From contig AP019005.1 of the NCBI GenBank assembly GCA_003945285.1, positions 372,001 through 436,000 of the forward strand: DNA of 64,000 nucleotides, given 5' to 3'. Made by a program: the position numbers and the translations under genes. This document shows, in pieces, positions 1,063-18,070 of the stretch (its first letter is position 1; each line of letters begins with the position of its first letter). Origin of the DNA: Hydrogenimonas sp. GTDB lineage: Bacteria > Campylobacterota > Campylobacteria > Campylobacterales > Hydrogenimonadaceae. The notes beneath the pieces are model-generated. The model made no database searches. It was not told where the DNA came from and worked only from the letters and a program-made list of their open reading frames with translations.

Positions 1063-3489
1063 ATGCAGCTTAGCGACTATGGTGCATTCCCGGCCGATAT
1101 CCCGGTGATAGTGGAGGATGATCTTTTTCTCTACCCTTTTATGATTTCACCGATCTTTCTGAATGACGAAAAGAACGTTCAGGCGGCTGTAGAAGCGGTC
1201 GAGACCAACTCTTTGGTATTGGTCTGCCCGACAAAGCCCAATCATGAGGGGGAACGCACTTTTGACGCGATCTACAATGCCGGGGTCGTAGGCTCCATAA
1301 TGAGGAAGGTCACCCTGCCGGACGGCCGCATAAAAGTGCTTTTCCAGGGGTTGGCTCGCGGCCGTATCGTGGAAGAGGTCTCATCCTCTCCGCTCGTAGC
1401 GAAAGTGGATATTATCAGTTCGAAACCATACAACGAAATGAAAATAGAGGCGCTTATGGAGGTTCTGCGCGAAAAGCTGCGAACCCTCTCGACGGTCTCC
1501 AACCAGTTTCCTCCCGACCTGATAAGAACGATCGAAGAGAATCATGAGCCGAATCGAATCGCGGACCTTATTTCGAGCACCATCAGAATAAAAAAGCCGG
1601 AAGCATACGAACTCTTCATAGAGGAGGATGTTGAGCAGAGACTTCTTCTGTTGATAGATATAATCAGTGAAGAGATCGAGGCAGGCAAACTCCAAAAAGA
1701 GATCCGCTCCAAGGTCCACAACCGTATAGAGCAGGTGAACAAAGAGTATTTCCTGAAAGAGCAGCTTAAACAGATACAGCAGGAGCTCGGTACCGATACC
1801 CAGCGTGAAGAGGAGATAGAGGAGTATTACAAAAAGCTCGAAGCCAAAAAGCCCTATATGAACGAAGATGCGTATAAAGAGGTGAAGAAGCAGATCGACA
1901 GATTCGCCCGTATGCACCCTGATTCCGCGGATGCGAATTTGATACAGAGCTATCTAGACTGGGTACTGGAGATTCCGTTCGGAAAGGTTGCGAAGAAGCA
2001 TCTGAGTGTAGAAGATGTCCAAAGGCAGCTGGACAAAGATCACTACTCCCTGAAAAAGCCCAAAGAGAGGATTGTTGAGTACTTTTCGGTAAGGGAACTG
2101 GCTGAACTGAGGGGTATCAAAGACAAGGAGATAAAAGGGGCGATTCTCTGCTTTGCCGGACCTCCCGGCGTAGGCAAGACATCTCTGGCCAACTCCATAT
2201 CGAAAGCCCTGAAGAGAAAACTGGTACGAATCGCACTCGGCGGACTTGAGGATGTCAACGAGCTGCGCGGACACAGGCGAACCTATATCGGCGCCATGCC
2301 GGGTCGTATAGTCCAGGGTCTGATAGATGCCCAGGAGATGAACCCGGTGATGGTGCTGGACGAGATAGACAAGGTCGGCCGCAGCATGAGAGGCGACCCG
2401 ACCTCCGTACTTCTGGAGATACTCGACCCGGAGCAGAACAGTGCGTTCAGGGACTACTACCTCAACTTCAATATCGACTTGAGCCAGGTGATATTTATCG
2501 CAACGGCAAACGATGTCGGGGCTATTCCGGGGCCTCTGCGCGACCGCATGGAGTTCATCTTCCTGAGCAGCTACACGCCGCAGGAGAAGTATGAGATCGC
2601 CAAGAGGTACCTGATTCCGCAGGAGCTTAGAAAACATGCCCTCAAAAAGAGTGAGTTTTCCATTACCAAGGCGGCTCTGGAGGCTGTCATAGAGAACTAT
2701 ACGAGAGAGGCGGGTGTAAGAAATCTTCGCAGACGCATCGCGGATATTGTCCGAAAAGCGGCGAAGGAGATTCTTTCAAACCCGGATATCGGGAAGGTTT
2801 CGGTGACGCTGAAAAACCTTTCGGAGTTCCTCGACAAACCTCTTTTCGAAATCGATGTCGCGGATACGGAACCTACCGTAGGGGTTGTAAACGGCCTCGC
2901 CTGGACCGCCGTCGGAGGAGACGTTCTCAAGATAGAGACGATAAAGATAAAAGGGAAAGGGGCGCTGCAGCTTACGGGAAGCCTCGGAGAGGTTATGAAG
3001 GAGTCCGCCAGAATCGCCCTGAGTGTTGTCAAGACCCTGATAGACCAGGGAAAGCTTCCCATAGATGAACGCATAATTCCAAAAAGCGCAAAAGAGATAG
3101 AGAGCGGGGTGAAGCCTGAAGCCAGCGAAGTCTACAAGCGATACGATCTGCATATCCATATTCCGGAAGGCGCGACGCCGAAAGACGGGCCAAGTGCAGG
3201 TATTACGATGGCTACAGCCATAGCGTCCATTCTGGGCGAATACAAGGTGCGTGCGGATGTGGCGATGACCGGAGAGTTGACGCTGACCGGGAGAGTACTT
3301 CCTATAGGCGGATTGAAGGAGAAGCTCATAGCGGCATACAAGGCTAAGATAAAAAAGGTTCTGATACCGGAGAAAAACTTCAGACGGGATCTTGACGATA
3401 TTCCGGATGTGGTAAAGGATGCTCTCGAGATCGTACCGGTTAAGGGAGTGGAAGAGGTTCTGAAAGAGGCGCTACTGCTGAAGAGGTAA
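1063..3489 (+). CDS. lon: ATP-dependent protease La (Lon)
   Basis: This 808-residue cytosolic protease unfolds and degrades misfolded and regulatory proteins. The N-terminal substrate-binding domain (about 1-200) and a long coiled-coil helix (210-290) are followed by an AAA+ module. Walker A is GPPGVGKTS with Lys372, and Walker B is VMVLDEIDK. The C-terminal protease domain carries the Ser-Lys dyad: Ser711 in [10 protein letters not shown] and Lys754 in GLKEKL, with the 43-residue separation of the E. coli enzyme. The ATG has a strong TTTGGAGG ribosome site. It follows bamD but has its own promoter. It converges on the phosphorelay operon with only 15 bp between stop codons. Confidence 0.97.
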
Positions 3490-3490
3490 A

Positions 3491-3505
3491 AGAAGGGCGC
3501 CTTCT
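3491..3505. terminator. Short hairpin between convergent lon and receiver gene
   Basis: AGAAGG, loop GCG, CCTTCT gives a 6-bp stem lying exactly between the two facing stop codons. No T-run follows on either side, so it is at best a weak bidirectional terminator or a boundary hairpin. Confidence 0.35.
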
Positions 3506-3879
3506 CAAAGCGTGGAGAGGCGTTCTATTTTTCCCATAATCTCATGCTCTCTGACCGGCTTTGCGATGAAGTCGTTGGCACCGCTGTTGAGAGCCTCCGT
3601 CTTTTTCGTTTCGTCTGTAGTAAGAACGATGACGGGAATATTCTGCAGAGCCGGGTCCGAATTCATGATCTGCAAGACTGCGATCCCGTCCATTATCGGC
3701 ATTATTATATCGAGCAGGACGAGATCTATATCGTTTAGGTCGCGAAGCAGTGTAATGGCTTCCTGGCCGTCTGATGCTTCAACAAGCTCGCCGATCATGG
3801 GACTCTTTTTCAGCATGGCCGCCATCAGCTTCCTGTTTATCATATCGTCATCGACAACCAGAACTTTCAGTGCTTTCAT
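3505..3879 (-). CDS. Stand-alone CheY-like response regulator receiver
   Basis: This single-domain receiver has 124 residues when started at the internal ATG (3877-3879), which follows GAAGGA and lies 4 nt after the kinase stop. An upstream start 12 codons earlier is possible but would sit inside the kinase gene. All phosphorylation residues are present: acidic pair Asp10/Asp11, phospho-acceptor Asp57 in LVLLDIIMP, Thr87 and Lys107 in AKPV. There is no output domain, so it is likely the final phosphate acceptor of the phosphorelay encoded by the four genes upstream and acts by protein contact, as CheY or Spo0F do. Its target is not visible. Confidence 0.88.
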   Translation of the reverse strand: MKALKVLVVDDDMINRKLMAAMLKKSPMIGELVEASDGQEAITLLRDLNDIDLVLLDIIMPIMDGIAVLQIMNSDPALQNIPVIVLTTDETKKTEALNSGANDFIAKPVREHEIMGKIERLSTL

Positions 3880-3883
3880 CAAA

Positions 3884-6800
3884 TTATCCTTCGTTCTTAA
3901 TAAATTTTTCCACAATCAATCTTATAAGATCCCTGTTTACCAGGTTGACAATAACTTCGTCGCTCAGCTCTCTCTCTTCCGTAGTGACCTCACTTGTCGG
4001 ATCTGTCATCAGGACTATAGCGGCGTGCGGCGCGTTTAACTTCAGATTTTCACGCAGAGCGGACAGCGCAAGGCCCTCTCTCTCTTTGTCTACAAAAACC
4101 AAACCGGTCTCTTCATCTATCATGCCTATAAGCTCTTTTGCGTCATTTGCAATATCGACCTTGAATCCAAGTTCGTGAAGCATATTTGCGAAAATCTTAC
4201 TCTCGAGAGGGCTCTTTTTCAGAACCAGGATCCTCTCTCTCGCTTTCTGTTCCGCCTCTTCGCTTCCAGCCTGGTTTTCCGCCGGTTTCTCTGCCGCACT
4301 TTCGACCGGTTGGGCAGAAGTTTCGAAGTTGATCTCTTTCTCCTCACTCTCCGCAGAAAGCCCCTCTTTCGTCTCTCCGGTGTTCATTTTGCCCGAGAGA
4401 AATTTCTTCAGAATCGAAACGATCTCCTCCCTGATCAGCGGCTTGGTAGTATACTCGTCGAGTCCTTCGGCCAGGAATCTCTCCCTATCGCCCTTGAGCG
4501 CGTTGGCTGTCAAAGCGACTATAGGCACATGCGGAACGTTTTCATCCTCTTCGTAGTCGAGGATCTCGTGTGTCGCCTCTACACCGTCCATGACAGGCAT
4601 GGATATATCCATGAAGATGATGTCGTAGTCTCCGCTTCTGCGTTTTTCGAACGCTTCTAGTCCGTTGTCGGCGAGCTCGACCTCAAGCCCCAGATCCTCG
4701 AGGGTTCTTTTGATCAGCTTCTGGTTTATCGTATTGTCTTCCGCCACCAGCGCTTTGGCCTTGAAGCCGATATGCTCGAGTTCGAGCATCGGCCGGCGCA
4801 TCTCTTTGACTACGCCTGAAGTAGCCGCTTTGAGTACCGAAACCATCTTTGTGGCGTTTATCGGTTCGTAGAGAATCTTTTCGCAGTGGAGCTTCAGATT
4901 CTCTATTCGCTTCTGCTGTGTCGACTTGATTATGACGTTGCAGTGGAGGGGAGTTTTACCCATCTTTCTGAGGTCACTGTCCGAAGCGTAGTCGCTATCG
5001 ATAAGGGCTGACTGGACCTTCTTCTCCGTGGCGAGTTTTATCAACTCCTCCGGGGACCCGAAAGGGATCAGTGTGGCACCGAAGTAGTCGAGATACTCTT
5101 TTATGTAGTCGTCCTGCTTCTTATGCATGCCGGCGGATCTGTACATTGCGACTGAAACGTTGCTGAATCTGTTGTACATATCTTCGTTCATCTGCGGAAG
5201 CTCATCGAACTCCAGGGTGAAATAGAACCTGGTGCCTTTGCCCAGTTCGCTCTCTAGCTGGAGATGCCCGCCCATCAATTCGGCATATCTGGCCGATATC
5301 GTGAGTCCGAGGCCCGTTCCGCCGAATTTTCTCGTAACACTTGTATCGGCCTGTGAAAAGGCTTCGAAGATGTGCGCTTTTTTGTCTGGAGAGATTCCTA
5401 TACCGGTATCTTCGACACTGAAGCTGATGGCACACCTGTCGGGATCTTCGGCATGGACTTTTCTGATTTCGACATTGATCGCTCCGCCCTGGTTGGTGAA
5501 CTTGACGGCGTTGCTAAGAAGGTTTATCAGGATCTCTTTGATCTTGGTAGGATCACCCTTGATGGGCTGGTTGAGCCTTGGGTCTATGAAGCATGCCAGG
5601 TTGACACTCTTCTCGGCAGCTTTGACGGCGTAGATTTCGACCGCGCTCTCAAACTCTTCTATCGGGTTGAATACAATGTTTTCTATCTCGACTTTGTTGC
5701 TCTCTATCTTCGATAGGTCTAGAATATTGTTGATGATCTCGAGCAGGTTTTCGGAGCTCTTCTCTATGATGCTTACGAACTCCTTCTGCTCACCTTTGAG
5801 TTCCGTATTTTTTAGAAGCTCCGTAAAGCCGACGATACCGTTTAACGGGGTCCTGATCTCGTGACTCATGTTCGCGAGGAAGAGACTCTTCGCTTCGCTC
5901 GCCTCTTCGGCACGCTGCTGCTCATGCCTTGCCTCTTCTATGATCGTCTGAAGAAGCGAGTAGGCCTTGGCCGTTCCTTCTGCCGTATCGAGGTTGATAT
6001 TGATCTGCTTGCTTGTGGATTCGGCCGCACTCTGCAGAATCGCCTCTAGATTCTTGATGTTCTGTGTGATCTCCCTGCTCACTATGTATCCGAGGGTTGC
6101 CAGAATCAGTGTTATTACCCATAGAGCCGCCGAAGCGAGGGCTATGAACATCTGCTCTTCCATCGTCTCGCCGCTCTTCTCTTTCAGTGAAGTGAATATG
6201 ATACTCTGCGCCTCTGCCAGGCGTGTAATCTTCTCAGTATTCAGCTTGAACCAGTAGAGAGGGTCAATCGTGTAGTAGCCGTCATTTATGGAGTGAAGTA
6301 TCTCCGTTCTTGCTTTTGTTAGCGCTTCGAAAGCTCTCTCTGCTTCCGGGGAGGTGAGCAGGGCGTGTACACGCTGCTTGAGCTCTTCGTCGTTTATGAA
6401 ATCGTACTCGAAAGAGTCGGCCTGTCCAATGTAGTGGATCCATTTTTGCAGCTCTTCGTCGCTCATCTTGGTATATCTGGTAAGAATATAAGACATGAAT
6501 CCGCGTTCAATACCGCTGTACTCTTTCGCTTTCGCAAAGTTTACGTAGGCTTTCGCTTCGTTCGCTATCTCATGCTCCAGGCCGATGGTGGTTACCTTGT
6601 CTATCTCTTCAATAAGCGCTTTTATAAGCACCGAGTAGTAGTTGAAAAAGGCTTTGTTGAAATCGATCTGGAGTGTATCGATCTGCTCACGCTTCTTTCC
6701 GAGCATACCAAGCAACAGCCTTATCAGTTTTTTCGGTTTGACTTCCGGGTGGTTGGATAGGTATCTGTTGAATTCGGCTATCTCTCTATCGACTGCGGCC

Positions 6801-7051
6801 CGCTGCTTTTTCAGCTTTTCGATCGCTTTTTTGCCGTTCGATGCGATATATATCGATGTGAGTCCGCGCTCTACGGCCAGCTGGGTGGCTACACGGTTGA
6901 CTATGGCGTTGTACTCAATCCGTTCATTTAGGGTTTGAACCTTAAGGTAGTTGGTAGCCGACTGATAGAGAAAAAAGCTGGCAAATGCCAGCAGCAGGGT
7001 GATTGGGAAAAGAGATATCAGTTTGAGTTTACTTTGTACGCCTATTTGCAT
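3884..7051 (-). CDS. NIT-domain hybrid sensor histidine kinase with several receiver domains
   Basis: This is a 1055-residue inner-membrane kinase. A membrane segment at 10-31 is followed by a helical periplasmic region, 45-290, whose QLAVERGLTSIYIASNG stretch resembles the nitrate/nitrite-sensing (NIT) family. A second segment lies at 301-323. The cytoplasmic part has HisKA with His397 in MSHEIRTPLNG, HATPase with Asn514, DTGIGI at 548-553 and FGGTGLGL. Then come a degenerate receiver-like region (about 630-745), a canonical receiver (765-885; Asp772, Asp815, Lys870), an acidic linker rich in Glu, Ala and Ser, and a C-terminal receiver-like domain (939-1050). In the last, the acidic pocket is replaced by Lys945-Lys946 although Asp988 remains. 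There is no HPt domain; that is supplied by the neighbouring gene. NIT domains can sense ligands other than nitrate. Confidence 0.9.
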   Translation of the reverse strand: MQIGVQSKLKLISLFPITLLLAFASFFLYQSATNYLKVQTLNERIEYNAIVNRVATQLAVERGLTSIYIASNGKKAIEKLKKQRAAVDREIAEFNRYLSNHPEVKPKKLIRLLLGMLGKKREQIDTLQIDFNKAFFNYYSVLIKALIEEIDKVTTIGLEHEIANEAKAYVNFAKAKEYSGIERGFMSYILTRYTKMSDEELQKWIHYIGQADSFEYDFINDEELKQRVHALLTSPEAERAFEALTKARTEILHSINDGYYTIDPLYWFKLNTEKITRLAEAQSIIFTSLKEKSGETMEEQMFIALASAALWVITLILATLGYIVSREITQNIKNLEAILQSAAESTSKQININLDTAEGTAKAYSLLQTIIEEARHEQQRAEEASEAKSLFLANMSHEIRTPLNGIVGFTELLKNTELKGEQKEFVSIIEKSSENLLEIINNILDLSKIESNKVEIENIVFNPIEEFESAVEIYAVKAAEKSVNLACFIDPRLNQPIKGDPTKIKEILINLLSNAVKFTNQGGAINVEIRKVHAEDPDRCAISFSVEDTGIGISPDKKAHIFEAFSQADTSVTRKFGGTGLGLTISARYAELMGGHLQLESELGKGTRFYFTLEFDELPQMNEDMYNRFSNVSVAMYRSAGMHKKQDDYIKEYLDYFGATLIPFGSPEELIKLATEKKVQSALIDSDYASDSDLRKMGKTPLHCNVIIKSTQQKRIENLKLHCEKILYEPINATKMVSVLKAATSGVVKEMRRPMLELEHIGFKAKALVAEDNTINQKLIKRTLEDLGLEVELADNGLEAFEKRRSGDYDIIFMDISMPVMDGVEATHEILDYEEDENVPHVPIVALTANALKGDRERFLAEGLDEYTTKPLIREEIVSILKKFLSGKMNTGETKEGLSAESEEKEINFETSAQPVESAAEKPAENQAGSEEAEQKARERILVLKKSPLESKIFANMLHELGFKVDIANDAKELIGMIDEETGLVFVDKEREGLALSALRENLKLNAPHAAIVLMTDPTSEVTTEERELSDEVIVNLVNRDLIRLIVEKFIKNEG

Positions 7052-7064
7052 GAGTCACCTCTGG

Positions 7065-7466
7065 TTATAATGGAATATTGTATTTCGCCGCGATAGCTGT
7101 GCACTCGCCGGCGCCGTTTTCTCTGCCCTCTTTCAGGAGGCCGAGCAACTCTTTTTTGTCTGCCCTCTTGCTCAGAATCTTGGCTTCGGCGAGGAAACAT
7201 TTTGCCCTCGCATTACCGAATGCAACAGCTTTTTGGAGATAGATTCTGGCTTTCGACAGGTCACGGTTTACACCTTTGCCTTTCAGGTAGATAAGCCCGA
7301 GAAGAAAATAGGCCTGCTGCGCACCCTCTTTGTCTACGGCTTTTTGCAGCATCTCTTTCGCTTTGGTATAGTCTCCCGACTTATATGCGCGAATACCGTC
7401 TGAAAAGTAGCTGGAGAAGAGCAGAGAGGGGGTTAGGACCAGAAGTGCGAGGAGAGCCTTTTTCAC
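7065..7466 (-). CDS. Secreted Sel1/TPR-repeat protein in phosphorelay operon
   Basis: This protein of 133 residues has a cleavable signal peptide (about 1-18, MKKALLALLVLTPSLLFSS) and two to three Sel1/TPR-type helical repeats, such as YFLLGLIYLKGKGVNRDLSKA near 53-73. Such repeats bind other proteins. Its start is GTG, overlapping the HPt gene stop (GTGA) behind a good AAGGAG. Translation is therefore coupled to the HPt gene, and the kinase starts 13 nt later. A periplasmic partner for the kinase's sensory domain is a reasonable guess, but nothing in the sequence proves it. Two Cys residues near the C-terminus could form a disulfide, as in HcpA-type proteins of the phylum. Confidence 0.72.
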   Translation of the reverse strand: MKKALLALLVLTPSLLFSSYFSDGIRAYKSGDYTKAKEMLQKAVDKEGAQQAYFLLGLIYLKGKGVNRDLSKARIYLQKAVAFGNARAKCFLAEAKILSKRADKKELLGLLKEGRENGAGECTAIAAKYNIPL

Positions 7467-9133
7467 GCGTACTCCTTTTCTATCATCTTAGTCAGTGCGG
7501 CAAGCTTGTGATAGAACTCTATAAGCTCTTTCTCGACCTCTTTCGGATTTTTGGCGTGCTGTACATTTTCCATCAACTGTTTCATATCCTCGATTCTTAG
7601 GTTCGCTGCTACCCCTTTGAGCTTGTGTGCCACCTCGTTCAGCCTATTTATATCACCATCCTCATAAGCCTCTTCGAAGCTGCTCCTCTCTTCGCGGGCC
7701 TGCTCGATAAAATCATTCACGAACTCGAGTATCAAAGACTCCGGAAGTCCCAGGGCCTCCGCGGCTTCGTTGGGATCGAAGACAATCGTCTCTCCGGTAT
7801 CTTTCTCCTCAAGCTTCAGCTTCGGAGAGATCTCTTCGGCAGGCTCGCTCTCTACCTGTTCTACCGGTTTTCCAACGCTATGGAGCTCATCCTTGGGAGA
7901 TTCGAAGCGCTCAGTGATTTCGGAAGCGGTTTGCAATATCGTCTCTCCTGCCGTCTCGGACTCCGGTATGTAGACGGCCGCCAATGTATGCATATATGAG
8001 TCTATTTTACGCCAGGCACTTTTCAAGTCACTTTCGCCCTTTTTCGAGAGAAGTGTTTCAAGAGCCGCCGTTAGCGGTTCCATTCTGAGGTTGGCGGCAA
8101 CCCCTTTCAGTATCAGTGCCTCTTTTCTTACTACATGAAAATTGTCGGAGGCCAGTGCGGCTTCCATCTCCGGCCTCTTATCCATATATGTAGTTACAAA
8201 CTCCCTGATAAACGCTTTGATCATACTCTCCGGCAACCCCAGCATAGAAGAGACTTTTCGTATATCCGGTATTTCGATTCCGCTCTCCTTCGGCTCCTGC
8301 TCTATATTCGCGGATGCGGGTTCACCGATGTCGGCGAAAGCTCTTTTCATATCGGCATCTTCGGCCTCAAATATGAACGGCTCTTCACTCTTTGGCTCTA
8401 TCTCTTCAGGCTCGGCAGCCGTTTCGGTTTCAGGGCGACTCTCCTTCGCTTCAGTACTCTCCTCTACGGTTACATCGAAAAGAAGCTCTTTAATCTCCTC
8501 CTCTCTCTCCTTTTTGTCGGTATCTATATCGAAATCGATCGGTTCCGCAGGCCTCTCTTCCGACGCGGAAGAAGCTTGAGCCGTAAGCTCCCCGATCCGA
8601 GAGAAGTCGAAGTCTCCGGCCCCGTCTTCCGTCTTCTCTTCGAAAAAGGGCGGTTTCGTCTCCTCTGCATCCAAAGATATATCAGTATCCGCGGCGGACG
8701 GGATGTCGACAGGAAGCTCGGTTGCACGGAAATCGTCGAATGCTCTCTCCTCGAAAGCCGCCTCTTCCGGGCTTTCGAAAGAGGCGGCGCTGCCGCCGGT
8801 GAGTTTGAGGTTCTTGAACTCCACATGGTAGAAAAACTCGGGAGTGTTCTCATCGAATTCGACAGGATAGTGCACATCCAGCGAGAGTGTGCATTCGTAG
8901 GTTGCGTTGTCTTTCGTCGATATCAGAACTCTCTTCTGTTCATCGTTGGCGTTTCTCAGAAAGCTGATCCATGAGAAATTTTCGAAGTTGTAGATATACC
9001 CGGGGCGTTTGACAAAAAGTTCGCTGTAGTCGTTATGTTCGGCGTTGAAGTGCTCAATGTCGTGGTATCCTGCAAGCTGCAGGGCCTTTTTCGAGATACT
9101 GAACAGTTTGCCGTCGTTTCTATAGATTAGCAC
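7463..9133 (-). CDS. Double HPt-domain phosphotransfer protein with PAS-like N-terminus
   Basis: This 556-residue soluble protein has a PAS-like alpha/beta start (about 1-110), a long acidic, low-complexity linker (115-285) and two histidine phosphotransfer domains joined by a second linker. The second HPt has the expected motif VAHKLKGVAANLR with His503. The first aligns as EALILKGVAANLR, with Leu340 where the phospho-histidine should be, and therefore cannot take part in phosphotransfer in the usual way. The gene starts 2 nt after the PAS gene and overlaps the Sel1 gene. It supplies the HPt step missing from the hybrid kinase, between that kinase's receiver and the stand-alone receiver. Confidence 0.85.
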   Translation of the reverse strand: MLIYRNDGKLFSISKKALQLAGYHDIEHFNAEHNDYSELFVKRPGYIYNFENFSWISFLRNANDEQKRVLISTKDNATYECTLSLDVHYPVEFDENTPEFFYHVEFKNLKLTGGSAASFESPEEAAFEERAFDDFRATELPVDIPSAADTDISLDAEETKPPFFEEKTEDGAGDFDFSRIGELTAQASSASEERPAEPIDFDIDTDKKEREEEIKELLFDVTVEESTEAKESRPETETAAEPEEIEPKSEEPFIFEAEDADMKRAFADIGEPASANIEQEPKESGIEIPDIRKVSSMLGLPESMIKAFIREFVTTYMDKRPEMEAALASDNFHVVRKEALILKGVAANLRMEPLTAALETLLSKKGESDLKSAWRKIDSYMHTLAAVYIPESETAGETILQTASEITERFESPKDELHSVGKPVEQVESEPAEEISPKLKLEEKDTGETIVFDPNEAAEALGLPESLILEFVNDFIEQAREERSSFEEAYEDGDINRLNEVAHKLKGVAANLRIEDMKQLMENVQHAKNPKEVEKELIEFYHKLAALTKMIEKEYA

Positions 9134-9135
9134 GC

Positions 9136-9555
9136 TTATCCTTTACTCATCTCATCTTCAAGCATCTGGGCGTATCTATGGGTTATCGAATCGATATCTA
9201 TCCGTTTGGCCGGATGCCTGGCAGCAATGTATCCGACTTTTTTACCGTTTTTGAAGACCGGTTTGATGAAAGTGCTGACCCAGTAATATCGGCCGTCTTT
9301 GCGCAGATTTTTAACAAGACCTGTCCACTCTTTATCGGCCTGAATGGTATCCCACATCTCTTTAAAGGCGGCTTTCGGCATATCCGGGTGGCGGATGATG
9401 CTGTGGGGCTGTCCCACCAGCTCCTCTTTTGTGTAGCCGGAAATCTCGATGAACTTCCGGTTCGCGTATGTAATGATACCGTTGAGGTCCGTTTCGCTGA
9501 TAATGATTCCGTCAACGAAGGTATACTCTTCATCGATCGGTTCAGGTCTTCTCAT
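9136..9555 (-). CDS. Aer-type PAS domain protein
   Basis: A protein of 139 residues that is almost entirely one PAS domain of the Aer redox-sensor type. Motifs include SETDLNGIITYANRKF, GQPHSIIRHPDMPKAAF and KNLRKDGRYYWV, which in Aer surround the FAD. It ends in a short helix. I place the start at the ATG 9553-9555 because GGAG lies 5 nt before it; an ATG five codons upstream (9568-9570) has no clear ribosome site. As first gene of the minus-strand phosphorelay operon, it may bring redox or oxygen information to the kinase. It lacks a transmitter or methyl-accepting domain. Confidence 0.85.
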   Translation of the reverse strand: MRRPEPIDEEYTFVDGIIISETDLNGIITYANRKFIEISGYTKEELVGQPHSIIRHPDMPKAAFKEMWDTIQADKEWTGLVKNLRKDGRYYWVSTFIKPVFKNGKKVGYIAARHPAKRIDIDSITHRYAQMLEDEMSKG

Positions 9556-9679: not shown

Positions 9680-9839
9680 TTAAAGGTATAAATCCGCTAT
9701 TATCGGTCAGCCGTTAGGCATATGCACCTTTCAGGCGGCAAACCAGTCTCTATCTATTGTAAGATAAACTGTTTATAATGAACAGAATAATAGCACAACT
9801 TTCGATAGCTTTCACTTATCCTTACCCGGATTATATCGG

Positions 9840-11648
9840 TTATTTAGCGATATTTTTCAGGTGCTCGAAAAGGCTTTGCGCATCCTTTTCGCTCAACACC
9901 GCGGAGAGATCTTTTATGCCGGCACTTTTCACAGCTTCGAAGGTGCCGAAAAAGTCGAGAAGCCGTTTGACCTTCGCAGGGCCTATTCCTTCCGCTTCAA
10001 GCAGGGAGATCTCCTTCTCTCTCTTCAGGCGCTGCTTTTTGTGAAACGATATCGCGAAGCGGTGCGCTTCGTCACGCAGCCGCTGAAACCACTGAAGCCT
10101 TCCGTCGCCTGGCATGAGCCGCAGCTCACCTTCGGGCGTATGGAGTATATCTTTCGCGGCCCCTTTCGCCCGGTGGGCCTTGGCGTCGATCTTCTCCTTC
10201 GCTATGGCGACCACCGGGAGGTTGACCCCCGCATCTTTCAGGAGAGTTACAGCCAGCTGCCGCAGCGTCTCTCCCCCGTCTATTACCCACAGGTCGGGCG
10301 GCGGCTCTTTTTCGAAGCTCTCTATCCGTCTGCCAAGCATCTCCCTCATCTGGCCGTATTCGTCTCTGGAGTCCAGGTTGTAGTGCCTGTAACTCTCTTT
10401 GTCCCACCTCTCTTCGTGCATTACCGCCATCGCTCCCACACAGGCTCTTCCCATAAGGTGCGAGTTGTCGAAGACCTCCACTCTGACCGGCGGTGAGGAG
10501 AGCCCCAGTAGATCGCCTATCTGCTTCGAAAGCAGCGACTTAGGTCTCTTTTTATGCTGTTTCAAAAGCTCTTCGGCATTCTGCAGCCCCAGTTCGACAA
10601 GCCGCCTTTTCGCTCCCCTTTTGGGTGAGAGTATTCCGACTCTTCGGCCCACTCTTATGCTTATAAGGTCGGAAAGGCCGGAAGCCTCGTCCAGCGGTAC
10701 GGCAGTCAGGACCGTGCCTGCCGCAAACGGGGTTCCCGGGGCGTAGAACTCCAGAATCGCACGTCTATAAATCTCCTGTATGTCGATATCTTCATGCACA
10801 TCGAAGAGGGTATGGCTTGAAGATACGATCTTCCCTTCCCGCATGAACATTCTGACTATCACCCCGTGGGTATCGTCGTAGCCGACCGTGAAAATATCGA
10901 GGTTTTCGAGCGTTGCAAGGTCCGCTGCGGAGTACTCCTCGATCTTTCCTATCGCCTCTATGCGGTCGCGGATCTCCGCAGCCTCTTCGTAGCGCATCGA
11001 CTCCGCGTAAAAAGACATCTTCTCCTTCAGGGCGGAGATGAGCCTCTTTTTGTTGTGGATATAGCCGAGCGCCTCATCTATCAGTTTCGCATACTCTTTC
11101 GTGTCGATCTTCCCTTCGCAAGGGGCCATGCAGCGGCCTATCTGATGGAAAAGACACGCTTTTTTCCCCTTCAGGCACCCCTTTTTCTGAACGAGAGGCA
11201 CCAACTCGTAAAGAGAGGAGAGAATGGCTCTCGCTCCGGCGGGAAACGGGCCGAAATACTTTACATCTTTTCCCTTTACCACTCTTCTGGTGAGTTCGAA
11301 GCGGGGAAAGGGTTGGCTGAGGTCCAGGTAGATGTAGGGGTATGTCTTGTCGTCGCGCAGCAGGATGTTGTATTTGGGTTTGAGCTGTTTTATCAGCGAG
11401 TTTTCCAGCAGCAATGCGTCGCTTTCGCTCTGTGTAACGATTGTCTCTATTCTTGCCGTCTTGCTGACCATTCTATGTATGCGCGGCCCGAGCCTCGGTG
11501 CCGGCGCAAGTTCCGGCCTCATTCTGAAGTAGCTTTTCACCCGCTTTTTGAGACTCTTCGCCTTTCCCACATAAAGAAGCCTGCCGTCGCGGTCGAAATA
11601 TTGGTATACACCCGGCCTGTCCGGAAGGTTTTTCAGCGTCTCGAGCAT
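9840..11648 (-). CDS. uvrC: Excinuclease ABC subunit C (UvrC)
   Basis: A 602-residue nuclease that makes both incisions in nucleotide excision repair with UvrA and UvrB. The N-terminus has the GIY-YIG nuclease (PGVYQYF..LLYVGKAKSLKKRV, residues 13-35). A cysteine-bearing region (GCLKGKKACLFHQIGRC) and a UVR motif near 200 follow. The C-terminal RNase H-like nuclease shows VEVFDNSH and LWVIDGG, and tandem helix-hairpin-helix motifs (LLEAEGIGPAKVKRLLDFF) end the protein. The start MLETLKNLPDRPGVY at 11648 is the family start; the frame stays open 59 codons further upstream but that stretch lies antiparallel in another gene and has no family similarity. It overlaps the preceding small gene by 16 bp. 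Confidence 0.95.
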   Translation of the reverse strand: MLETLKNLPDRPGVYQYFDRDGRLLYVGKAKSLKKRVKSYFRMRPELAPAPRLGPRIHRMVSKTARIETIVTQSESDALLLENSLIKQLKPKYNILLRDDKTYPYIYLDLSQPFPRFELTRRVVKGKDVKYFGPFPAGARAILSSLYELVPLVQKKGCLKGKKACLFHQIGRCMAPCEGKIDTKEYAKLIDEALGYIHNKKRLISALKEKMSFYAESMRYEEAAEIRDRIEAIGKIEEYSAADLATLENLDIFTVGYDDTHGVIVRMFMREGKIVSSSHTLFDVHEDIDIQEIYRRAILEFYAPGTPFAAGTVLTAVPLDEASGLSDLISIRVGRRVGILSPKRGAKRRLVELGLQNAEELLKQHKKRPKSLLSKQIGDLLGLSSPPVRVEVFDNSHLMGRACVGAMAVMHEERWDKESYRHYNLDSRDEYGQMREMLGRRIESFEKEPPPDLWVIDGGETLRQLAVTLLKDAGVNLPVVAIAKEKIDAKAHRAKGAAKDILHTPEGELRLMPGDGRLQWFQRLRDEAHRFAISFHKKQRLKREKEISLLEAEGIGPAKVKRLLDFFGTFEAVKSAGIKDLSAVLSEKDAQSLFEHLKNIAK

Positions 11649-12076
11649 TTGATGGTCTCTTTCAGCGACTCGAACCTCTCTCTTATCTTCCCGTTTTTGC
11701 ACTCTATTTTGAACTCCCCTGCAGACCTCTCTTTGTAGAACGGAACGGAGTCTGAGCTCTCCTTCGGCTCCGGCGCGAATTTGGAGACGAAAGCCTTGAC
11801 ACGGCGAATCTCGTGTGTGCCGCACGCCTCTTTCAGAGGCGGCAGCGTGCTTAATAGGTTCTTAATTAAAGAGAGCTTATAATCAAATTCCATTTTGAAA
11901 GCGGGATGTTTCAGAGCGAAAAAGAGTGTTCCGTTTTTTACATAAATAAAAAGGATGCCGCGTTGCAGTCTCTGCGGAAGTGCTTTTTTGATGAGCGTGA
12001 AGCACCTCTGCCGGCGGAGAACGGCATATGTCGGCTGTGAGAGAAGATGATCGATAACCGTTTCAACATTTTTCAT
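11633..12076 (-). CDS. Conserved small protein upstream of uvrC, possibly DciA/DUF721-like
   Basis: A basic protein of 147 residues. The middle (residues 28-75: ALPQRLQRGILFIYVKNGTL, then FALKHPAFKMEF and SLIKNLL) has the strand-strand-helix pattern of the DUF721/DciA fold, whose better known member DciA loads the replicative helicase. This similarity is weak and by eye only. The C-terminal third is rich in Lys, Arg, Glu and Ser and looks disordered. The stop overlaps uvrC by 16 bp, so the two are likely co-transcribed and coupled. Its start region overlaps, on the opposite strand, the start of the small lipoprotein gene at 12047. Confidence 0.6.
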   Translation of the reverse strand: MKNVETVIDHLLSQPTYAVLRRQRCFTLIKKALPQRLQRGILFIYVKNGTLFFALKHPAFKMEFDYKLSLIKNLLSTLPPLKEACGTHEIRRVKAFVSKFAPEPKESSDSVPFYKERSAGEFKIECKNGKIRERFESLKETIKCSRR

Positions 12077-17878: not shown

Positions 17879-18070
17879 GACTGAGCGGTGCGCTATCCGC
17901 ATTACGGGGGTCCAACACTTTGATATTGCGGGACAGCGTAGATGCACCGTGTGTCGGCAACTTCGCTTGAGCCGGTGCTCCCGGCGAGAAGCTGCCGCCT
18001 AAAGTGCATCTCCCTCCTGCATCGTTGGTCTGCTTTGGACCACACTTGAGCGTGAACGCCCGCTCGGTCC
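17879..18070 (+). ncRNA. ssrS: 6S RNA (SsrS), regulator of RNA polymerase
   Basis: About 190 nt without a reading frame fold as 6S RNA does. The ends form a perfect 10-pair closing stem (GACTGAGCGG, 17879-17888, with CCGCTCGGTC, 18060-18069). A second 7-pair stem, GATGCAC (17941-17947) with GTGCATC (18004-18010), leads to a terminal arm with GCCGG/CCGGC. Between the two stems the strands are open, forming the promoter-mimicking bubble, with a small hairpin (TGGTC/GACCA, about 18027-18042) on the 3' side as in E. coli. CGAGAAGC in the apical arm also matches the E. coli RNA. The size (184 nt in E. coli) agrees. 6S RNA binds housekeeping RNA polymerase in slow growth. It lies upstream of purD; as I recall, Helicobacter pylori has the same neighbour, but I could not check. 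Confidence 0.8.

Follow-up and report, generated by a model that had tools for sequence, protein, structure and literature searches.

Several described signaling systems resemble, in part, the locus reported here. In gammaproteobacteria, uvrY adjoins uvrC. The CckA-ChpT-CpdR system of Caulobacter joins a hybrid kinase and a separate histidine phosphotransfer (HPt) function to a lone receiver that acts by protein contact. ExoR resides in the periplasm, and ChvI has a DNA-binding output. Here, we analyzed a 64,000-nucleotide stretch of Hydrogenimonas sp. (GenBank assembly GCA_003945285.1, contig AP019005.1, positions 372,001 to 436,000; hereafter the window), which carries an operon for a NIT-type hybrid histidine kinase, a PAS-HPt protein, a lone receiver and two optional partners. 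The operon defines a concrete, so far unnamed signaling module shared by relatives of Hydrogenimonas, Sulfurimonas and Sulfurospirillum. Most informative is what is seen beyond the window, a graded loss of phosphotransfer among relatives that appear to retain a scaffold.

According to one study, pseudo-histidine kinases and pseudo-receivers have lost their phospho-sites and are retained in signaling networks, the pseudo-receiver of ShkA inhibits its kinase and binds cyclic di-GMP, and 0.9% (90/10,312) of Hpt domains at large are His-less (PMC12632262). Another describes ExoR as a Sel1-repeat protein working with the sensor kinase ExoS (PMC4550343). In a Campylobacterota signaling survey, hybrid kinases are flanked by stand-alone sensor genes, Campylobacter has undergone signaling loss with degenerate cyclases retained, and the relevant sections mention neither the module nor a degenerate kinase (PMC9239204). 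Our literature search, with most subscription papers and all supplements beyond reach, yielded no description that we recognized as this operon.

A block on the minus strand, running from 9555 down to 3505, holds five genes. Intergenic spacings in operon order are +2, -4 (an overlap), +13 and +4 bp, in line with the gaps of 13 bp or less, or overlaps, given by the initial annotation of the window, a reading made from the letters and open reading frames (ORFs). In this order, the features are:

9136..9555, minus strand: PAS protein of the Aer/CetB redox (flavin adenine dinucleotide, FAD) type by sequence relation, 139 aa, Pfam PAS_3 at 3.4e-18; optional member
7463..9133, minus strand: PAS-HPt protein, 556 aa, with a predicted PAS fold at residues 1-111, an acidic linker and two HPt domains
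8801..9133, minus strand: N-terminal PAS-fold domain of the HPt protein, used to follow the module through the phylum
7065..7466, minus strand: putatively secreted Sel1-repeat protein, 133 aa, Pfam Sel1 at 8.5e-10; optional member
3884..7051, minus strand: NIT hybrid histidine kinase, 1055 aa
3505..3879, minus strand: lone receiver, 124 aa, with Asp57 counted from the ATG at 3879, Pfam Response_reg at 2.8e-24

All four residues of a His-Asp-His-Asp relay are present. His397 (SHEIRTP) and Asp815 (FMDISMP) of the kinase, His503 (AHKLKG) of the PAS-HPt protein and Asp57 (LLDIIMP) of the lone receiver stand where the initial annotation had placed a complete chain across three proteins. Pfam found no DNA-binding or enzyme output domain in the five window proteins or the orthologues scanned, which agrees with its view that neither a transcription factor nor an enzyme output is encoded. 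The same reading had spoken of a double HPt protein. Two HPt-like domains are there, and the first (~293-392) has Leu340 in the place of His and cannot carry phosphate; the second (~456-554) bears His503. Acidic linkers follow the PAS domain of this protein.

The kinase begins with a hydrophobic stretch (~9-30), the NIT domain (54-283) and a second hydrophobic stretch (~300-328), followed by HisKA with His397 and HATPase. Its tail comprises a pseudo-receiver (~628-745), the receiver with Asp815, a linker and a C-terminal pseudo-receiver (~940-1050). A model of residues 626-1055 predicts three receiver-type folds, the middle one (Asp815) canonical and the other two degenerate. In the C-terminal one, which has a modeled receiver topology, Lys945-Lys946 replace the acidic pair and Asn1036 stands where Lys would be expected. 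The tail signature Lys-Lys...Glu...Asp is kept at fractions of 0.99 (Lys945), 0.92 (Lys946), 0.94 (Glu950) and 0.99 (Asp988) of rows with letters.

Orthologues retain these sites. The kinase His is present in 82/82, the fused receiver Asp in 76/76 with letters (6 gaps) and Asp57, Thr88 and Lys107 of the lone receiver in 67/67, counts that predate the addition of the Campylobacter-type family. Asp11, Asp12 and Asp89 of the lone receiver are likewise invariant (67/67). At eight loci, identity to the window was 72-91% for HisKA and 52-76% for the fused receiver, against 20-38% for the sensor and 19-35% for the tail. By sequence, a conserved HisKA and fused receiver with a variable sensor and tail is the pattern of a working relay.

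Genome contigs were scanned with an alignment of the HPt protein, giving 112 pattern stretches, of which 100 were confirmed and 80 kept. In total, 132 loci were assembled; the window itself was excluded from neighbor counts, and denominators are loci with enough sequence. Because the HPt protein was the sole query, its neighbors count as independent evidence. The DNA-repair gene uvrC lay no more than five frames upstream of the HPt gene in 115/121 loci. In 111/112, a same-strand kinase orthologue stood at most six called frames downstream. The lone receiver was present in at least 99/112 loci, the PAS gene in at least 72/121 and the Sel1 gene in at least 23/112; these are lower bounds, since genes missed through overlapping wrong-frame ORFs or contig ends were scored absent. 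The survey of the gene set that the initial annotation had called for thus finds the genes kept together, with the kinase adjacent to the HPt gene in nine family codes. A fixed set of five did not hold up, as the PAS and Sel1 genes are both optional. The general order is uvrC-[PAS]-HPt-[Sel1]-kinase-receiver in Hydrogenimonas, Sulfurimonas, Sulfurospirillum and Nitratiruptor-type genomes, where the Sulfurimonas-type label (64 loci) covers a remainder, including records under the names Arcobacter, Helicobacteraceae and Sulfuricurvum and one locus (L073) that behaves like the Nitratiruptor type. An HPt-protein locus was found in 16/17 same-genus genomes, with the same neighbor order as far as contig or flank reached.

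To cover the phylum, a profile of the N-terminal PAS domain of the HPt protein (A2; E ≤1e-6) was run on 220 genomes of ≥90% completeness. It matched 84, of which 37 were strong, 39 were weaker and belonged to the Campylobacter-type family (f10), and 8 lay in larger frames only (489-1003 aa). Regions were examined for 29/37 strong and 39/39 Campylobacter-type genomes, leaving out G046, G058, G068, G136, G152, G169, G207 and G230. In all 39 Campylobacter-type genomes the HPt gene adjoins a kinase orthologue, and uvrC adjoins save in 4/8 genomes of group g26. In a uvrC tree (88/124 rows), the families form single groups, the deep forks are weak and the groups with His-less HPt are not united. The module is old and apparently vertically inherited in Campylobacterales, as judged from these sequences.

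Across these genomes the relay residues occur in four forms. Form A, with the full set, is found in Hydrogenimonas, Sulfurimonas-type and Nitratiruptor-type genomes. In form B the HPt protein is His-less; it comprises 16/16 Sulfurospirillum-type HPt proteins, four g30 genomes and single rows of f22 and f6. Sulfurospirillum-type genomes keep the kinase His and the fused receiver Asp (15/15 each), with the lone receiver found in 15/16, and the four g30 genomes keep the kinase His, the fused receiver and the lone receiver. Form C is seen in eight g26 genomes. The kinase His and the lone receiver are retained in 8/8, the Thr of the fused receiver is missing in 8/8 and an acidic residue at position 772 remains in 1/8. 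Form D comprises 27 g10 genomes. Here, the kinase His, the N-box Asn and both G-box Gly are replaced in 27/27, so that the kinase orthologue lacks its phospho-His and ATP-site residues and is a pseudo-histidine kinase by sequence. No lone receiver was found after it in the 26/27 genomes with sequence beyond; in the other, the contig ends there. Pfam recognized no NIT, HisKA or HATPase in 2/2 g10 kinase orthologues scanned, and these Campylobacter-type descendants therefore pass unrecognized by that route. The C-terminal pseudo-receiver keeps Lys945 in 25/27, Lys946 in 19/27 (Ser in 8), Glu950 in 26/26 and Asp988 in 26/26. In g10 HPt proteins, such as L153 7346-8098, the linker that follows the PAS domain repeatedly shows a short LRLP-type motif (PEVRLP, PALRLP, LNLRLP); a docking motif is one possible reading of it.

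Among 90 HPt proteins, the domain order was His/His-less in 58, His-less/His in 10, His-less only in 10, His only in 7, a His-His-less variant in 2 and none in 3. Counted with our own profile, which was seeded with both kinds and is not the same measure as the published figure, 79/158 HPt-like domains have no His. Nitratiruptor-type HPt proteins include 3/6 with two His-bearing domains and one His-less domain and 2/6 with two His-bearing domains. All 19 Campylobacter-type HPt proteins (16 His-less, 3 without an HPt match in a permissive profile search) and the 16 Sulfurospirillum-type ones show no HPt His, and the four-step chain is accordingly not a general property of the locus. In the best kinase tree, the His-less HPt groups need one change, on a branch whose Shimodaira-Hasegawa-like approximate likelihood ratio test (SH-aLRT) value is 100 without f15, f5 and f6. 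This tree is unrooted and holds 67/122 rows, with g10 left out and the Sulfurimonas type thinned to one in three. Homology of the HPt domains would make the direction of the change a loss. In an HPt-domain tree (122 rows, 93 columns, support ~80; without Campylobacter-type rows and with the Sulfurimonas-type ones thinned), the Hydrogenimonas His-less HPt groups with His-bearing domains, away from the Sulfurimonas His-less ones. This suggests independent losses in the two, which we take only as a lead.

The g10 kinase frames are under purifying selection. In nine pairs, the ratio of nonsynonymous to synonymous substitution rates (dN/dS) ran from 0.07 to 0.15 over the entire kinase orthologue and from 0.03 to 0.13 in its former kinase region. 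Frame lengths were 943-973 aa in 25/27, the other two being one cut by a contig end and one shortened frame (L194). From these sequences we claim that the g10 kinase orthologue retains a function; the domain responsible is left unassigned, with the tail signature as a pointer only.

The NIT domain (PF08376) scored 134.1 bits against a gathering score of 24.9. Its profile matches NasR (4akk) at 1.6e-6, with the ERG arginine aligned to that of NasR, whereas a single sequence gave no match in the PDB. NasR is a nitrate-responsive NIT protein (PMC8199190). Forms A and B retain the ERG arginine almost throughout, and later forms do so unevenly. The best PDB matches of the window PAS protein are aerotaxis receptors (8dik, 5.6e-34 over residues 15-125), a sequence relation to the FAD-binding Aer PAS domain, and the RHPDMP motif recurs in 66/81 operon PAS proteins. 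This relation suggests that the Aer-type PAS protein is a redox input, and nitrate plus redox is the likely input of the module as judged from homology. The Sel1 protein starts with a signal-peptide-like stretch, judged by eye, as do the orthologues compared, which bears out the earlier claim of a secreted repeat protein inside the operon. It does not satisfy the ExoR model (15.2 bits, cut-off 450), and a periplasmic partnership with the NIT sensor is possible.

Residues 1-111 of the HPt protein gave an AlphaFold 2 (AF2) model with a predicted local distance difference test (pLDDT) score of 95 and a PAS fold. The PDB matches listed are PAS, LOV and FixL domains with Foldseek probabilities of up to 1.00, none of them reaching E 0.001 (best 0.0059), and the best VIA alignment has Z 8.6 with a root-mean-square deviation (rmsd) of 3.2 over 92 residues. 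Structure comparison thus assigns a predicted PAS fold to a domain in which Pfam found PAS by sequence in 1/17 members. A comparison with the operon's own PAS protein by hhalign gave no relation. Two hybrid kinases, a GGDEF (diguanylate cyclase) protein and an HD protein of these bacteria carry PAS-like domains related to the N-terminal one of the HPt protein. These carriers are:

L207 823-2781
L209 732-2711
L210 698-1717
L211 130-1983

The host genome of the window is a single contig of 2.19 Mb, whose nearest named relatives are Hydrogenimonas records. It has 25 receiver and 15 HisKA matches, and the module kinase is the only frame with both, in a search confined to HisKA among the kinase families; a neighboring receiver/HisKA pair at C1:1249389 and 1250105 sits in two separate frames. 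Hpt matches fall in the PAS-HPt protein (two stretches), an 819-aa CheA-like frame and HPt proteins of 132 and 239 aa. The module had been called self-contained. Its kinase is indeed the sole HisKA-receiver frame, and the genome holds two other His-bearing HPt proteins besides the CheA-like frame, so that cross-talk is possible. The 239-aa protein (THGLKGAA) is membrane-anchored and adjoins a shikimate-kinase-like gene (L004 1045-1764; C1 1412780-1413499); HPt matches in frames of 234-261 aa in six same-genus genomes may be the same protein. The lone 132-aa protein lies between panB- and trpA-like genes (L003 1450-1848). Hpt matches in frames of 135-156 aa occur in Sulfurospirillum- and Campylobacter-type genomes.

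These genome counts bear on an ordinary phosphorelay, in which the lone receiver would serve as a sink or shuttle for phosphate, with the true output regulator encoded elsewhere. The 25 receiver matches and the two further HPt proteins would fit such an arrangement, and stand-alone receivers of Campylobacterota clusters have been proposed as phosphate sinks (PMC9239204). The single HisKA-receiver frame and the operon partners kept across many families point the other way, and a sink leaves unexplained the dead kinase of g10, kept with the PAS protein and with no lone receiver beside it. We regard this explanation as unlikely, though worth serious consideration.

A second alternative is chemotaxis or energy taxis, with the lone receiver as a second CheY, the PAS protein as a CetB/Aer relative and the flagellar motor as the output. 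The PAS protein does match Aer best, and CetA/CetB is an energy-taxis system in C. jejuni (PMC2628428). The lone receiver does not satisfy the CheY model NF007901 (55.5 bits, cut-off 189), and FliG_C is absent in 5/5 g30 genomes, four of which carry the kinase and the lone receiver. A search for Hpt, CheA included, gave no match in 2/2 g30 genomes tested. Since these carriers have no FliG_C, the g30 output cannot be the flagellar motor, and the output of the module is not only the motor; taxis is disfavored and, of the explanations weighed here, the least probable. In g30, any route from the kinase to the lone receiver must also dispense with an Hpt of the kind visible to the search.

We consider it somewhat probable that the module is a nitrate/redox phosphorelay with a contact output, built on a scaffold whose noncatalytic role outlives the chemistry. 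In the proposed mechanism, the NIT domain would sense a periplasmic ligand of the nitrate/nitrite class, and the secreted Sel1 protein would probably modulate this sensing from within the periplasm. The kinase would autophosphorylate His397 and pass the phosphate to Asp815 of its own receiver, from there to His503 of the PAS-HPt protein and finally to Asp57 of the lone receiver, whose output would be contact with a partner protein. Cytoplasmic (redox) input may come from the Aer-type PAS protein and from the PAS domain of the HPt protein. Docking surfaces that join kinase, HPt protein and receiver would be provided by the His-less HPt together with the two pseudo-receivers. Such an assembly would do something in its own right, since lineages without the HPt His, then without a sound fused receiver, and finally without any kinase chemistry or a lone receiver, still keep the PAS-HPt protein and the kinase protein adjacent and under purifying selection. 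According to PMC12632262, the His site cannot be bypassed in phosphotransfer, so the HPt-like domain in forms B-D must do something else; docking would be the simplest idea.

A bolder version of this scheme, plausible and held tentatively, places the selected core in the scaffold itself, a PAS-headed pseudo-HPt protein docked on the pseudo-receiver tail of a membrane sensor. The relay would then be a detachable input, lost in successive steps along one lineage (first the HPt His, next the fused receiver, last the kinase chemistry together with the lone receiver). This would leave a dead NIT-kinase and PAS protein coupled to uvrC and active by conformational contact in a Campylobacter-type genus. 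The initial annotation had suggested an undescribed module acting by protein contact. Contact is supported, also by the dead and retained kinase of all 27 g10 genomes, although the four-step chain is not general and the set is not fixed.

Several observations weigh against this scheme of a relay on a scaffold. No output partner turned up in our analysis. Arg248 of the NIT domain is Lys in 14/14 Sulfurospirillum-type rows with letters, and the ligand may therefore differ there. The single-change branch for the HPt His has an SH-aLRT value of 34 when the long single rows f15 and f5 are included. In two of the eight g26 kinases the N-box Asn and one G-box Gly are already gone, and the single f6 genome shows no lone receiver behind its kinase. 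Compared pair by pair, dN/dS of the g10 kinase amounts to 2-7 times the uvrC value (uvrC 0.015-0.052). The last 125 residues of this kinase orthologue range from 0 to 0.26, a noisy measure not visibly tighter than the former kinase region, and the tail is barely better conserved within g10 (52% vs 40-51% elsewhere). This weaker constraint and untightened tail are why a retained function is claimed above, and not which domain carries it. In L194, from a g10 draft (G119, ~180 contigs), the frame at 3312-5849 has 845 aa and ends before the C-terminal pseudo-receiver, through either an error or a real truncation. Finally, a 100% complete genome of the same genus (G009) has no module, and two genes without a match to it lie between its uvrC and lon (L051).

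Some of these points would suit the view that the gene order is merely inherited by descent, that the parts form no unit and that the g10 kinase is a slowly dying pseudogene. The loss in G009, the absence of an A2 match in 136/220 genomes, a kinase dN/dS above that of uvrC and the shortened frame of L194 are all compatible with it. A dying gene should not keep a length of 943-973 aa in 25/27 g10 frames, the other two being those already named, or a dN/dS well below 1 in 9/9 pairs, and we judge this view very improbable. Extant species seem to span a gradation from a complete four-step phosphorelay to a catalytically dead sensor, in most cases at a single syntenic site. This raises a testable question: what does selection keep pseudo-kinases, pseudo-receivers and His-less HPt domains for after the chemistry is lost?

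The module is flanked by further features of the window:

9787..9795, minus strand: extended -10 promoter-like element TGCTATTAT, between uvrC and the PAS gene
9840..11825, minus strand: uvrC, the usual upstream neighbor (frame as listed; the true start is lower)
1063..3489, plus strand: lon, a convergent neighbor

The element includes TATTAT ending at 9787. TGNTATNAT was present in 12/16 same-genus regions (≤330 bp before the PAS start), compared with a mean of 0.5 and a maximum of 3 in 200 base shuffles, which suggests by sequence that the PAS gene has a promoter of its own in the genus. A leader RNA or riboswitch in the ~270-bp gap between uvrC and the PAS gene was considered and rejected: Rfam matches were at chance level only, and the gap is unconserved within the genus except for the promoter-like element. 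Upstream of uvrC, window positions 11633-12076 on the minus strand gave a weak match to DciA, a helicase-loader family (16.6 bits, cut-off 24), and many loci have a gene of about this size ahead of uvrC. A purD RNA motif (RF01069) lies at window positions 17938-18069 on the plus strand (81.1 bits vs a gathering score of 41).

This setting between uvrC and lon raises a last alternative, in proteolysis or genome maintenance. The lone receiver would be a Lon adaptor, as in CckA-ChpT-CpdR, with which the module shares protein classes, or the module would serve UvrC. Besides the window, lon adjoins the module in other Hydrogenimonas, Nitratiruptor-type and many Sulfurimonas-type loci, and in 4/7 g10 loci the PAS-protein gene and uvrC share a 4-bp overlap. 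Among the regions examined, lon was not seen as a neighbor in the Sulfurospirillum- and Campylobacter-type ones or at some Sulfurimonas-type loci. uvrC is not a neighbor in f15 and in 4/8 g26 genomes. Neighborhood alone is also a weak argument, and convergent genes do not have a common transcript. We rate this alternative as improbable and retain the phosphorelay with a contact output as our preferred account.

Compared with known systems, the window kinase comes closest to the tripartite hybrid kinases BarA/GacS, which act with UvrY/GacA and gave its best NCBIfam match (residues 378-909). It scores 403.7 bits against a cut-off of 890 for the BarA model NF008318, senses through a NIT domain and has its HPt on a separate protein; the module also has an extra C-terminal pseudo-receiver and no DNA-binding output. 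CckA-ChpT-CpdR is likened to the module by protein classes, and its HPt protein and sensor differ. ShkA-ShpA-TacA likewise has a hybrid kinase with a pseudo-receiver. The ShkA structure 6qrj is among the matches of the kinase-tail model with Z 19.4 but an rmsd of 16.7 over two domains, a VIA comparison of 430 residues that tests mainly the middle receiver, and sensor and output differ. In relation to ExoR-ExoS-ChvI, the window Sel1 protein lies outside the ExoR family by the score given above. The lone Aer-type PAS protein, with its RHPDMP motif, resembles the CetB/Aer sensors but is linked to a histidine kinase operon and not to a chemoreceptor. Relative to the pseudo-kinase class, in which 0.9% of Hpt domains are His-less, half of the HPt-like domains of this module (79/158, by our own two-kind profile) have no His.

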